From: Candidatus Peribacteria bacterium RIFCSPHIGHO2_02_FULL_49_16
Lineage (GTDB): Bacteria; Patescibacteriota; Gracilibacteria; Peribacterales; Peribacteraceae
Assembly (NCBI GenBank): GCA_001788955.1
Contig: MFXT01000006.1
Coordinates: 1 to 36,019 of the forward strand
Length of the DNA: 36,019 nucleotides
Reading direction: 5' to 3'
In this document: piece after piece, positions 6,738 through 24,200 of the stretch
Layout of the letters: each line of letters starts with the position of its first letter
Position numbering within the stretch: position 1 is the stretch's first letter
Notes under the pieces: model-generated
The model's input: the letters and a program-made list of their open reading frames with translations, nothing else
The model's database searches: none
What the model was told of the DNA's origin: nothing
Program-made: the position numbers and the translations under genes

Positions 6738-7553
6738 TTGCACAAAGCCCTTTTTCTTCTCACAGGCCTCCTCACTCTCTCCACACTCGAACTTTCCAAA
6801 TTGCCCGACGGCGACCTCCATCTTCATCTTCTTGATGTCGGTCAAGGTGATTCCATTCTTCTTACCACTCCCTCCGGCAAACATATTCTTATAGATGGCG
6901 GTCCCAATCTCTCCGTACTGGAACATTTGGGAACATATCTTCCCTTTTTCGATCGTCACATTGATCTCCTCATACTTTCTCATCCAAATCAAGATCATCT
7001 CACCGCATTTCCCGAAATCACCAAACGGTATTCCATCGGCTCCATACTTCTCACCGGCGCCCCATTCGATCTTGCACGCTATGATGCGCTTATTACACAA
7101 ATTCGGGAACGGAATATTCCCGTCATCGTCGCAGATCCTAAAAAGGATATTGCCATGGGAGATGGGGTATTGATCGATGTCCTCTGGCCACCACAAAAAC
7201 TCCGGGAAACATTTCTCAACAATGAAAATGAACTCTCTATCATCGCACGTATTCTCTACAAAGAGCATAGCATTCTTCTCACTGGCGATATTGAACATGG
7301 CGGCGAAGTCGCGATTCTCCAGTCCGGCGCCGATAGTGATTCTACTATTCTTAAAGTTGCTCACCACGGCAGCAAATCCTCTTCATCCACAGGTTTTCTT
7401 CTTGCGGCTTCCCCCGATCTCGCGCTCATTTCCGCAGGAAAGAATAATCCTTACGGCCACCCCAACAAAAAAGTTATAGAACGGCTGGAGGCAATGGGAA
7501 TTGAAGTAAGAAGTACAATCAAAGATGGCACTGTTTCCTTGATATTGGAATAA
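6738..7553 (+). CDS. ComEC-type metallo-beta-lactamase-fold hydrolase, exported or membrane-anchored
   Basis: This 271-residue protein has an N-terminal hydrophobic segment (about 3-20). Next come HLLDVGQGDSIL and LIDGGP, the hallmark start of the ComEC/Rec2 C-terminal metallohydrolase domain, then SHPNQDH (81-87), LLTGDIE and VAHHGS, and a C-terminal NPYGHP. In ComEC this domain is thought to degrade the non-transported DNA strand; free-standing copies are common and their substrates are mostly unknown. No ComEC channel region is present. The TTG start is chosen because TAGTAT ends 6 nt upstream and the hydrophobic N-terminus begins there. The 20-bp inverted repeat abuts this start. Confidence 0.8.
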   Translation: MHKALFLLTGLLTLSTLELSKLPDGDLHLHLLDVGQGDSILLTTPSGKHILIDGGPNLSVLEHLGTYLPFFDRHIDLLILSHPNQDHLTAFPEITKRYSIGSILLTGAPFDLARYDALITQIRERNIPVIVADPKKDIAMGDGVLIDVLWPPQKLRETFLNNENELSIIARILYKEHSILLTGDIEHGGEVAILQSGADSDSTILKVAHHGSKSSSSTGFLLAASPDLALISAGKNNPYGHPNKKVIERLEAMGIEVRSTIKDGTVSLILE

Positions 7554-7595
7554 ATAAAATATAGAAATTTAGCTTCACAAAGCCATTTTTTTAGC

Positions 7596-7601
7596 TATAA
7601 T
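7596..7601 (+). promoter_or_regulatory. -10 box TATAAT for the nucleotidyltransferase (leaderless, ATC start)
   Basis: A perfect TATAAT ends 6 nt before the ATC at 7608, the same spacing as at flippase, nrdR and dnaE. This promoter supports placing the start at that non-canonical codon. Confidence 0.6.
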
Positions 7602-7607
7602 CTCGTC

Positions 7608-8978
7608 ATCAAAACGATCCTCCTCGCCGCCGGCAGATCACAGAGATTCTGGCCACTCACGGACAAATATCTTGTCCCGATTTGTGGGAAGCCACTTCTT
7701 CTCCATCAACTCGATGCTCTACGCCAAGGAGATTGTGATGATATAATAATTGTTGCCGGTGTACACAATAAAAAACAGTTTGAAGAACTCCTACAACCTA
7801 CAATCTACAACCTACAACCTATCCAAATTGTCGAACAACACAATTTGGAACTCGGCATGCAAGGCGCTCTCCTCGATGCTCTACCGCTCTGTGGATCAGA
7901 TCCTGTTCTTATTGTCGGCAATGATATTGTGGAACCGGAACTCTTCTCTCAAATTCGCACGCAACTTCAAAGAGGAGATGCTGACGGAATCATTGCTGCA
8001 AGAAAAGTGGATGAATACTTTCCAGGTGGATATCTTACCGTGAATGAGACGTCCAACCGGGACGTCTCTACAACACAGGGACATATTGTGAACATCGTTG
8101 AAAAACCAGGAAAGGGAAATGAACCAAGCAATCTTGTGAACCTTGTTATTCATGCACATAAGAATGCAGCAGATCTCCTCTCTGTTCTTCAGCACACACA
8201 ATCACACAATGACGATGCTTACGAACAGGCGCTCACCACGCTCTTTCAACAAAAGAATTATCAAGCATTCTTCTATAACGGAACATGGTTCCCTTTAAAA
8301 TTCCCCTGGCATCTCCTTTCTGTTCTCTCACACATTCTTCAACAAAAAAATCTCCACCTTCATCCATCAGCCATCATCCATCCAACTGCAATCATTGATG
8401 GAAATGTTGTTCTTGGGGAAGATGTACATATCCATCCATATGCCTGCATTCGCGGCCCTTGTGTTATCGGAGATCGCAGCATTATTGGAAATAATGCTCT
8501 TATTCGCGCAACCAGTATCGGCACCGACTGCGTGATTGGATATAACAGTGAAATAAAAAACAGCGTTCTCTCTGATCATGTCTGGACTCATAGCACATAC
8601 ATTGCCGAGAGTATCATCGGAAGAAATGTTTCCTTCGGCGCAGGAAGCGTCACTGCAAACCTACGCCTCGATGAAGCAGAAATCTTTTCACAGGTGAAAG
8701 ACCAACACATCTCAACAGGTTTATATAAATTCGGCACGATTATTGGAGACGACGTGCGCATCGGAATTCAGGTAGGATTACAACCGGGAATAAAAATCGG
8801 AAGTGGAACATTTATCAACAGCCGCACTCTTGTCACAAAGGACATCCCGGCAAAAAGTTTTGTACAGGAAAAGGGTGGGGAAATATCCATAAAAGAAAAC
8901 CGCTCTTCTCTTCCACAACAGGAATTACGCGAAGGATTTCGTGCCGAATTTATGCAAAAAACACGCATATCTGAATAA
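7608..8978 (+). CDS. sugar-1-phosphate nucleotidyltransferase with left-handed beta-helix (GlmU-like layout)
   Basis: The protein is 456 residues when read from ATC 7608. The nucleotidyltransferase signature ILLAAGRSQRFWPLTDKYL occupies residues 4-22, followed by PICGKPLL, IVGND and VEKPG. From about residue 255 hexapeptide repeats (HPTAIIDGNV, IGDRSIIGNN, IGTDCVIGYN, IGRNVSFGAG) form a left-handed beta-helix, as in bifunctional GlmU and archaeal nucleotidyl/acetyltransferases. It likely makes an NDP-sugar, perhaps with acetyl transfer. No in-frame ATG, GTG or TTG exists upstream of the conserved N-terminus; the first canonical start (TTG 7845) would remove 79 residues including the signature. 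A heptamer repeat (7791-7825) and a palindrome (8046-8068) lie inside the gene. Confidence 0.85.
   Translation: MKTILLAAGRSQRFWPLTDKYLVPICGKPLLLHQLDALRQGDCDDIIIVAGVHNKKQFEELLQPTIYNLQPIQIVEQHNLELGMQGALLDALPLCGSDPVLIVGNDIVEPELFSQIRTQLQRGDADGIIAARKVDEYFPGGYLTVNETSNRDVSTTQGHIVNIVEKPGKGNEPSNLVNLVIHAHKNAADLLSVLQHTQSHNDDAYEQALTTLFQQKNYQAFFYNGTWFPLKFPWHLLSVLSHILQQKNLHLHPSAIIHPTAIIDGNVVLGEDVHIHPYACIRGPCVIGDRSIIGNNALIRATSIGTDCVIGYNSEIKNSVLSDHVWTHSTYIAESIIGRNVSFGAGSVTANLRLDEAEIFSQVKDQHISTGLYKFGTIIGDDVRIGIQVGLQPGIKIGSGTFINSRTLVTKDIPAKSFVQEKGGEISIKENRSSLPQQELREGFRAEFMQKTRISE
7791..7825 (+). repeat. heptamer tandem repeat inside a coding sequence
   Basis: Five 7-nt units of CTACAAC type are arranged head to tail (CTACAAC, CTACAAT, CTACAAC, CTACAAC, CTATCCA). 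They encode a short, poorly conserved-looking loop between two nucleotidyltransferase motifs. The other heptamer arrays in this window share the period but not the unit. Confidence 0.8.
8046..8068. repeat. palindromic element in frame within the nucleotidyltransferase
   Basis: GAGACGTCC (8046-8054) and its exact complement (8060-8068) flank a 5-nt loop, followed by TAC. The form resembles the GTAGAGACGT-type small dispersed palindromes known from several bacterial phyla. It encodes ETSNRDVS, which looks like a surface-loop insertion. Confidence 0.55.
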
Positions 8979-22647: not shown

Positions 22648-23550
22648 CTAAAATACCACTTTTCCATCCTCCCCTACAAAACGCATTTCGACGTCGAGAG
22701 GTTCCGTGACGGTTGAACGAATCTCTTCCACGAGTATCTGTGCATCTGTAAATGTTGCCTTGCCCGTGTTCAATAAAAAATTCGCATGTTTCTCTGCGAC
22801 CTGCAGATCTCCATGGGCGCAGCCACGCAGTCTCGCTTGATCAATGAGTTTCCAGGCAGGCGTCCCGTCAGGAAGACTCTTAAAACACGATCCTGCCGTC
22901 TTGATATGCGGCTGCGTTTCAATGCGCTTTTGAAGAAGCCGCTCAATTTCCGTCTGGGTTTCTTCACGTGGTCGTGCGGATACATTGAGTGTTACTTTCC
23001 AGATAACGGGAGCCTGTAATGTTTTAAACGCACTCTCTCTGTATCCAAATCCACATTGTTCTTTCTTCCAGGTCTTCCACTGTTTTTCATGATAGAACAC
23101 GACGTCTTGTATAAAAGAATCGAGCCATATTCCTCCTGCCCCTTGTCCTGCGTTGCCAAAAATTGCACCGCCGACAGTGCCGAGAATTCCAGTGAGGGGT
23201 GAGAGATCGAGATTCTTTTCCGCGAGTTCATGAATGAGAGAAGCAAGTATTTTTCCTGCATGAGTAGTGACCCGTGTTTCCTCTCCCAAAGCATTACTTC
23301 TGCTCTGCGAAGCTGTATCAATTTCTGTTTCACCAGCCACTACCTTCGCTACCACGGCCTCGATCACGCCATCGGCGAAAATGGTGTTCGATCCGCCGCC
23401 GAGCATCACAAGTGGAAGATTTTTCTCTTCTGCACATCTGACAATCTCTTCAATATCTTCTTGCGTGGAAAGCTCTGCATACCACCGCGCTTGTCCGCCG
23501 ATACGCATAGTGGTTTTGGGGCCAAGTGGGACGTTTTCCTGCAATTTCAC
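22648..23550 (-). CDS. murB: UDP-N-acetylenolpyruvoylglucosamine reductase
   Basis: This FAD-dependent oxidoreductase of about 300 residues performs the second step of UDP-MurNAc synthesis in the cytoplasm. The blocks TTMRIGGQARWY, VMLGGGSNTIF, LTGILGTVGGAIFGNAGQ and the catalytic-region GSCFKSL are readable. A short insertion (about residues 65-80, rich in S, T and A) is unlike typical MurB. The start is uncertain: GTG 23550 lies 7 nt after GATAAT, which fits the leaderless pattern, while ATG 23553 or 23556 would be only 4 or 1 nt away. The long frame to 23661 adds no MurB-like sequence. It supports the view that the cell makes peptidoglycan. Confidence 0.92.
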   Translation of the reverse strand: MKLQENVPLGPKTTMRIGGQARWYAELSTQEDIEEIVRCAEEKNLPLVMLGGGSNTIFADGVIEAVVAKVVAGETEIDTASQSRSNALGEETRVTTHAGKILASLIHELAEKNLDLSPLTGILGTVGGAIFGNAGQGAGGIWLDSFIQDVVFYHEKQWKTWKKEQCGFGYRESAFKTLQAPVIWKVTLNVSARPREETQTEIERLLQKRIETQPHIKTAGSCFKSLPDGTPAWKLIDQARLRGCAHGDLQVAEKHANFLLNTGKATFTDAQILVEEIRSTVTEPLDVEMRFVGEDGKVVF

Positions 23551-23557
23551 CATCATG

Positions 23558-23563
23558 ATTATC
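23558..23563 (-). promoter_or_regulatory. -10 box GATAAT for murB
   Basis: On the minus strand GATAAT ends 7 nt before GTG 23550. The two preceding ATG codons are too close to be encoded in a transcript starting 6-7 nt downstream. Confidence 0.4.
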
Positions 23564-23602
23564 GATGAGCAATCAGCAATGATCAATAAGCAATTCATTA
23601 GT
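23561..23602 (+). repeat. degenerate heptamer repeat upstream of murB
   Basis: The 7-nt units read ATCGATG, AGCAATC, AGCAATG, ATCAATA, AGCAATT, CATTAGT. The period is clear although units vary at two or three positions. Confidence 0.6.
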
Positions 23603-23726
23603 CTTGAGCGGGGGGTGTGAATGCCTGCGTCATGGGATTTGCGGCAGCCGTAACGGGACATGATCCTGTCAGTTGTTTCAATGCAACGGCGGATGCGTGC
23701 CTGTGTGCCGGGGGAAGCTGAATCTC

Positions 23727-24200
23727 CTATTTTCCCATCATTCCCGCCAGTTTTTCCATCGTTTCCGTAAGTTTTTCGGATTTTTTTCTCCGCTGGATGT
23801 TCATCATGAATTTGGTCAGGACCGCAAAGGCAAGAAGGCCCGCAGCGATGAGAATGAGGTCCCTTCGATCCAGAGGAATATGAAAGATTCCAAGCAGCGC
23901 CAATTGCCCGAGAGCAAAGAGAAAAATTCCGGAGAGGATACCGGTAACCAATGTCACGAGAATAACGCGTGAACGGTTTTCCTGCGAATCCTGGGGGGCG
24001 CTTGCAAGCTGCGTGAGAAGTTCGCTGTCGATGATCACCGGTTCCTTTCCCCAGTCCTTGAAGAGGTTGAAAACTTTTCGCTGAAGAACAAGCGTCACGA
24101 ATGTCTGAAACGGGATCGGCGTTTTTCCTTCAATAACCGCTCGATTGTGCTCGATGGTGATTGGGACTTCGAGATTTTTTTTAGAAGAAATAATGGGCAT
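23727..24200 (-). CDS. two-TM membrane protein of unknown function
   Basis: This 157-residue protein has a cytoplasmic-looking N-terminal part (1-75), two hydrophobic segments (about 84-106 and 115-134) joined by a short turn, and a basic tail ending GMMGK. I do not recognise a family. ATG 24200 is chosen because a perfect TATAAT ends 6 nt upstream; a frame to 24218 would place the promoter inside the gene. The gene lies directly downstream of gltX. The 120 nt between its end and the murB region show only a short, unconvincing reading frame. Confidence 0.75.
   Translation of the reverse strand: MPIISSKKNLEVPITIEHNRAVIEGKTPIPFQTFVTLVLQRKVFNLFKDWGKEPVIIDSELLTQLASAPQDSQENRSRVILVTLVTGILSGIFLFALGQLALLGIFHIPLDRRDLILIAAGLLAFAVLTKFMMNIQRRKKSEKLTETMEKLAGMMGK

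Follow-up and report, generated by a model that had tools for sequence, protein, structure and literature searches.

The locus raises the question of where translation begins in a gene whose reading frame offers no ATG, GTG or TTG codon ahead of the active-site motif of its product. The window, by which we mean the whole stretch of 36,019 nucleotides analyzed here, comes from a tiny, uncultured member of the Peribacteraceae (Patescibacteria) and carries on its plus strand a gene for a GlmU-like (TIGR03992-like) sugar-1-phosphate nucleotidylyltransferase/acetyltransferase of 456 residues, which we place at 7608..8978. Positions 7596-7610 read TATAAT-CTCGTC-ATC: a -10 box (7596..7601) ends 6 nt before the ATC at 7608..7610, and is preceded, across a 16-nt spacer, by a -35-like hexamer, TTCACA (7574..7579). 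Together, the two hexamers agree with the consensus at 11 of 12 positions, and they form the sole promoter-like site in 7450-7700. Because the -10 box ends 6 nt before 7608, A7608 is the predicted transcription start, and from the alignment of orthologues ATC would be the start codon, placed at the very 5' terminus of a leaderless mRNA. The frame of this ATC is also that of the preceding plus-strand gene (6738-7553), whose TAA stop (7551..7553) lies 18 codons upstream. No ATG, GTG or TTG is present in these 18 codons, nor does the frame contain one from 7608 onward until TTG 7845..7847, 79 codons in, where gene callers would begin. A first-pass annotation of this DNA had reported the 6-nt distance, the lack of an in-frame canonical start ahead of ATC and a shortening of the gene by 79 residues under standard gene calling; the sequence and a frame scan back to the TAA agreed with all three.

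The nucleotidyltransferase signature of the product, LLAAGRSQRFWPL, occupies codons 5-17 (7620..7658, plus strand) and would be lost with a start at the first canonical codon, as the first-pass annotation had stated. That annotation had the signature beginning three codons after ATC; it does lie close downstream, but its first residue is encoded by codon 5. Residues G9, S11, R13, W15, P16 and L17 of the signature are invariant. The protein combines a nucleotidyltransferase domain with a hexapeptide-repeat domain (a C-terminal left-handed beta-helix acetyltransferase), the two-domain layout of archaeal-type GlmU (TIGR03992; PDB 5z09, 2ggo). In a profile search, its best family was TIGR03992 (archaeal GlmU), with 245.9 bits over residues 2-409, a score that falls under the curated family cut-off of 292.1; we therefore name the product GlmU-like only. 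Alignment with PDB 5z09 spans residues 2-417 and pairs residue 2 with residue 2. This reading frame is the genome's single full-length match to the family.

The spacing at 7608 is that of the genome's ATG leaderless genes, in line with the earlier description. In 306 kb of the genome, good -10 boxes most often lie 6, 7 or 8 nt before ATG (12, 13 and 8 cases, compared with ~0-6 at any other spacing), and -10 boxes 6-8 nt before ATG occur at 44 per 1000 versus a background of 5.7. Within the window, the arrangement TATACT-6 nt-ATG is seen at at least four genes. Among 67 family orthologues of the GlmU-like gene, 45 have TANNNT 5-9 nt upstream, most commonly at 6 nt, whereas 200 shuffles gave a mean of 6.6 and a maximum of 14; Shine-Dalgarno-like tetramers were present in just 5. 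Position 7608 has the corresponding features, a -10 box at 6-nt spacing accompanied by a -35 element and, with CTCGTC preceding the ATC, no Shine-Dalgarno site. No unusual mRNA structure was found around this start region (z 0.12). Baudet et al. in 2010 reportedly detected non-canonical starts in D. deserti via proteomics. In leaderless genes of Deinococcus-Thermus, the -10 motif adjoins the open reading frame, with TANNNT ~6-7 nt before the start, as genome-wide here; the start codons discussed in the available part of that source are canonical, whereas the codon here is ATC (PMC12340547). Candidatus Peribacter riflensis is counted among organisms in which Shine-Dalgarno sites are scarce (PMC10783764).

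The codon aligned with 7608 in the 67 family orthologues is ATG in 43, GTG in 19, TTG in 1, ATC in 3 and ATA in 1. A second collection of 79 named loci, which overlaps in part with the genomes of the first set, gave ATG 60, GTG 16, TTG 1 and ATC 2; the wider relatives compared carry the names Peribacteraceae, Peribacteria and Peregrinibacteria. Non-canonical start codons thus recur across species: ATC in this genome (G000), in G001 and in G008, and ATA in G030. G001, Candidatus Peregrinibacteria bacterium CG10_big_fil_rev_8_21_14_0_10_49_16, is the closest named relative and the second species of the genus; its separately assembled contig PFDS01000004.1 reads TATACT-6 nt-ATC, without an alternative start, and its protein is 69% identical. 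On the aligned sequences, the ATC start is common to this sister species. It is probably also common to G008 (RIFCSPLOWO2_12_FULL_55_15, MFYG01000020.1), a member of another genus that reads TACAAT-6 nt-ATC, while G030 reads TATAAT-7 nt-ATA. Both G008 and G030 are weaker witnesses, since an in-frame canonical codon lies upstream (an ATG by 13 codons and a TTG by 7 codons, respectively); in G000 and G001, no canonical start preserves the conserved N-terminus. The first-pass annotation had proposed comparing the start in relatives, and the outcome, a canonical codon in 63 of 67 orthologues with ATC in a sister species and a second genus, favors its assignment.

In the protein tree, a group of five (support 97/98) unites G000, G001 and G008 with two further genomes, one starting at ATG and the other at GTG; G030 sits elsewhere. 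This placement implies either a single gain of ATC followed by two losses or two independent gains, and a separate origin of ATA. Non-AUG starts make up 24 of the 67 orthologues versus ~17 of 106 background-corrected leaderless starts in four genomes (Fisher p 0.004), an excess that is only suggestive because the orthologues share ancestry and we estimated the background ourselves.

Comparison with G001 also locates the beginning of the coding region. Across codons 1-79, 26 codons are identical, 29 synonymous and 19 replaced, resembling the rest of the gene, whereas in the 18 codons upstream of 7608, 2 are identical, 1 is synonymous and 15 are replaced. Protein-level conservation starts at codon 7608, and similarity ceases upstream. 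This pattern of codon changes indicates that the selected frame begins at or next to 7608. With the onset of conservation, the orthologue column and PDB relatives aligned from residue 2, the claim that the gene starts at ATC 7608 is supported. Taken together, these comparisons give good support to a genuine, conserved non-canonical start, and we consider it probable (about 80%) that a leaderless mRNA from the gene's own promoter begins with AUC and is initiated there by ordinary fMet-tRNA.

Several other explanations of this start were weighed. One would be a sequencing or assembly error at C7610 in a true ATG, and this genome is represented by one assembly. The same base is nevertheless C in PFDS01000004.1 and in MFYG01000020.1; an identical C in separate assemblies, with proteins 31% different, makes a base-calling error very unlikely. 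Initiation might instead use a neighboring non-canonical codon, as GTC 7605, CTC 7602 and ATC 7617 all lie within 9 nt and we found no mapping of leaderless start sites for the clade in the literature. This seems unlikely, because 7608 aligns with the start of the 63 orthologues that use a canonical codon, Lys2 is widely retained, and the codons upstream of 7608 are unconserved. A product made only from TTG 7845, by a decayed or truncated gene, is what mechanical gene calling would suggest; it is extremely improbable given that codons 1-79 show the same synonymous excess against G001 as the rest of the gene and hold the invariant active-site residues, and that no other full-length copy is present in the genome.

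The upstream gene could also deliver ribosomes by reinitiation or stop readthrough, as it lies on the same strand and in the same frame and ends 54 nt upstream, leaving a short gap. Against this stand the near-perfect promoter within the gap, at leaderless spacing, the lack of conservation of the 18 gap codons, and an identical promoter placement in orthologues whose upstream frame is closed a few codons before the start; we regard this route as quite unlikely. Finally, the genome encodes a tRNA-Ile(GAU) that matches AUC perfectly, and this tRNA could in principle start the protein directly on the 70S ribosome, with isoleucine as the first residue. We know of no precedent for a bacterial start led by Ile-tRNA, and near-cognate starts studied elsewhere use the initiator tRNA, so we give this mode of initiation hardly any weight. 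Initiation at ATC 7608 by fMet-tRNA on a leaderless mRNA remains the preferred reading.

The unusual start appears to be specific to the gene rather than a habit of the genome. Start statistics were drawn from ~306 kb of G000 and 238 kb of G001. In the 306-kb sample, ATC 7608 is the sole good -10/ATH pair without a canonical start within ~15 codons, and this uniqueness argues that the pair is not a common chance arrangement. General use of ATH starts was rejected: the enrichment of -10 boxes mainly concerns ATG (44 per 1000 in G000 and 46 in G001), with a slight excess before GTG, whereas before ATC the boxes are at background in G000 (3.5 versus 5.7 per 1000). G001 has a mild ATC excess (10.5 versus 4.9), whose cases fall within other genes or close to canonical starts, except for the GlmU-like gene. 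An all-ORF comparison was too noisy owing to antisense frames, and 55 orthologous pairs, in which infC was deliberately included, were used instead; only for the GlmU-like gene and infC did homology extend, in G000 as well as G001, far upstream of the first canonical start. A third candidate for a non-canonical start in G000 and G001 (L039, minus strand) was discarded as the antisense of a nicotinamide-nucleotide adenylyltransferase-like gene. Elsewhere in the window, the minus strand at 22648-24129 carries an open frame of 494 codons, ~156 of which precede its first canonical start, ATG 23661; the openness ahead of this ATG may be due to chance.

In the mechanism we propose, a sigma-70-type promoter would direct synthesis of a leaderless mRNA from A7608, its first three bases being AUC, with which the initiator fMet-tRNA (anticodon CAU) would pair despite a third-base mismatch, placing fMet as the predicted first residue. 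Initiation at AUC would be inefficient, downstream of a strong promoter, and the weak start may have been retained because it keeps enzyme levels low. In E. coli, leaderless mRNAs are translated with a strong AUG preference, codon-anticodon complementarity alone being insufficient and non-AUG codons performing poorly (PMC9031893), so efficient use of AUC would be unexpected there. A 5'-terminal AUC on a leaderless mRNA runs counter to that preference, and a start common to different species offers a natural test of start recognition without Shine-Dalgarno pairing. A broader proposal, that leaderless initiation in Peribacteraceae tolerates 5' AUC or AUA because 70S ribosomes that initiate directly evade proofreading by IF3, with the GlmU-like gene thereby coupling sugar-nucleotide precursor synthesis to ribosome pool status, is speculative, and we consider it doubtful.

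The first-pass annotation had cited the AUU start of E. coli infC as a precedent, which the literature confirms and extends: E. coli infC begins with ATT and its Streptomyces counterpart with ATC, and IF3 regulates its own synthesis (PMC5472188). As at 7608, a conserved ATH replaces the canonical start in these genes and is read by the initiator tRNA with a third-base mismatch. In contrast, the infC product is itself the factor that discriminates against the infC start, whereas the product here is a sugar-nucleotide enzyme; and, unlike that of infC, the start here lacks a Shine-Dalgarno site and lies at a predicted 5' end. A second precedent is Streptomyces sigR, which has a GTC start and is repressed by IF3 (PMC5472188). 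Like the GlmU-like gene, sigR is a non-translation gene with a clade-wide non-canonical start that gene callers misannotate, but it has an extended, strong ribosome-binding site (AGGAGGTG), in place of which the GlmU-like gene has a leaderless promoter. Conserved non-canonical starts are thus already known; within the literature we found, their occurrence in a leaderless metabolic gene free of a Shine-Dalgarno site looks new.

IF3 is present in the genome, and in 16 family members with a readable N-terminus, infC starts at one conserved column with CTG in 11 and TTG in 5; ATG or GTG was found at this column in none of the 16 genomes read. The loci (G000:C23:56095-56577, L208; L209-L216; L265-L276) encode the N-termini LRQR, LRRK or LQKR, and in most of the 16 a pyrimidine-rich stretch precedes the start. 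The codon is TTG in G000, and in G023 an in-frame ATG lies 9 codons upstream of the column. These starts suggest that start-codon discrimination by IF3 is likely to operate in the clade. The non-AUG start of infC in the family, as in known IF3 autoregulation, makes IF3 control of the GlmU-like gene plausible. Annotation pipelines limited to ATG, GTG and TTG would remove the active site of the GlmU-like enzyme and, across this Patescibacteria family, misplace the infC start wherever it is CTG.

For the initiator tRNA (L277-L290), an altered anticodon stem was rejected as the basis of the ATC start: A29:U41 replaces G29:C41 in nearly all Peribacteraceae examined, with G015 retaining G:C, and the change does not track with ATC. 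Within the genus, the D-loop differs and position 1 is A in G000 and U in G001, a base that might pair with A72; a contribution of these differences to the ATC start is possible. Neither similarity nor pattern searches, nor the tRNA loci inspected, yielded an initiator tRNA for G008, which may reflect an assembly gap or a split gene. In G034 (G034:C11:19887-20287, L291), ~320 nt reading as N, possibly an intron, interrupt the initiator tRNA gene. The genome also encodes a tRNA-Ile with anticodon UAU (G000:C26:681-757, L234), and its presence suggests that AUA may be read without lysidine.
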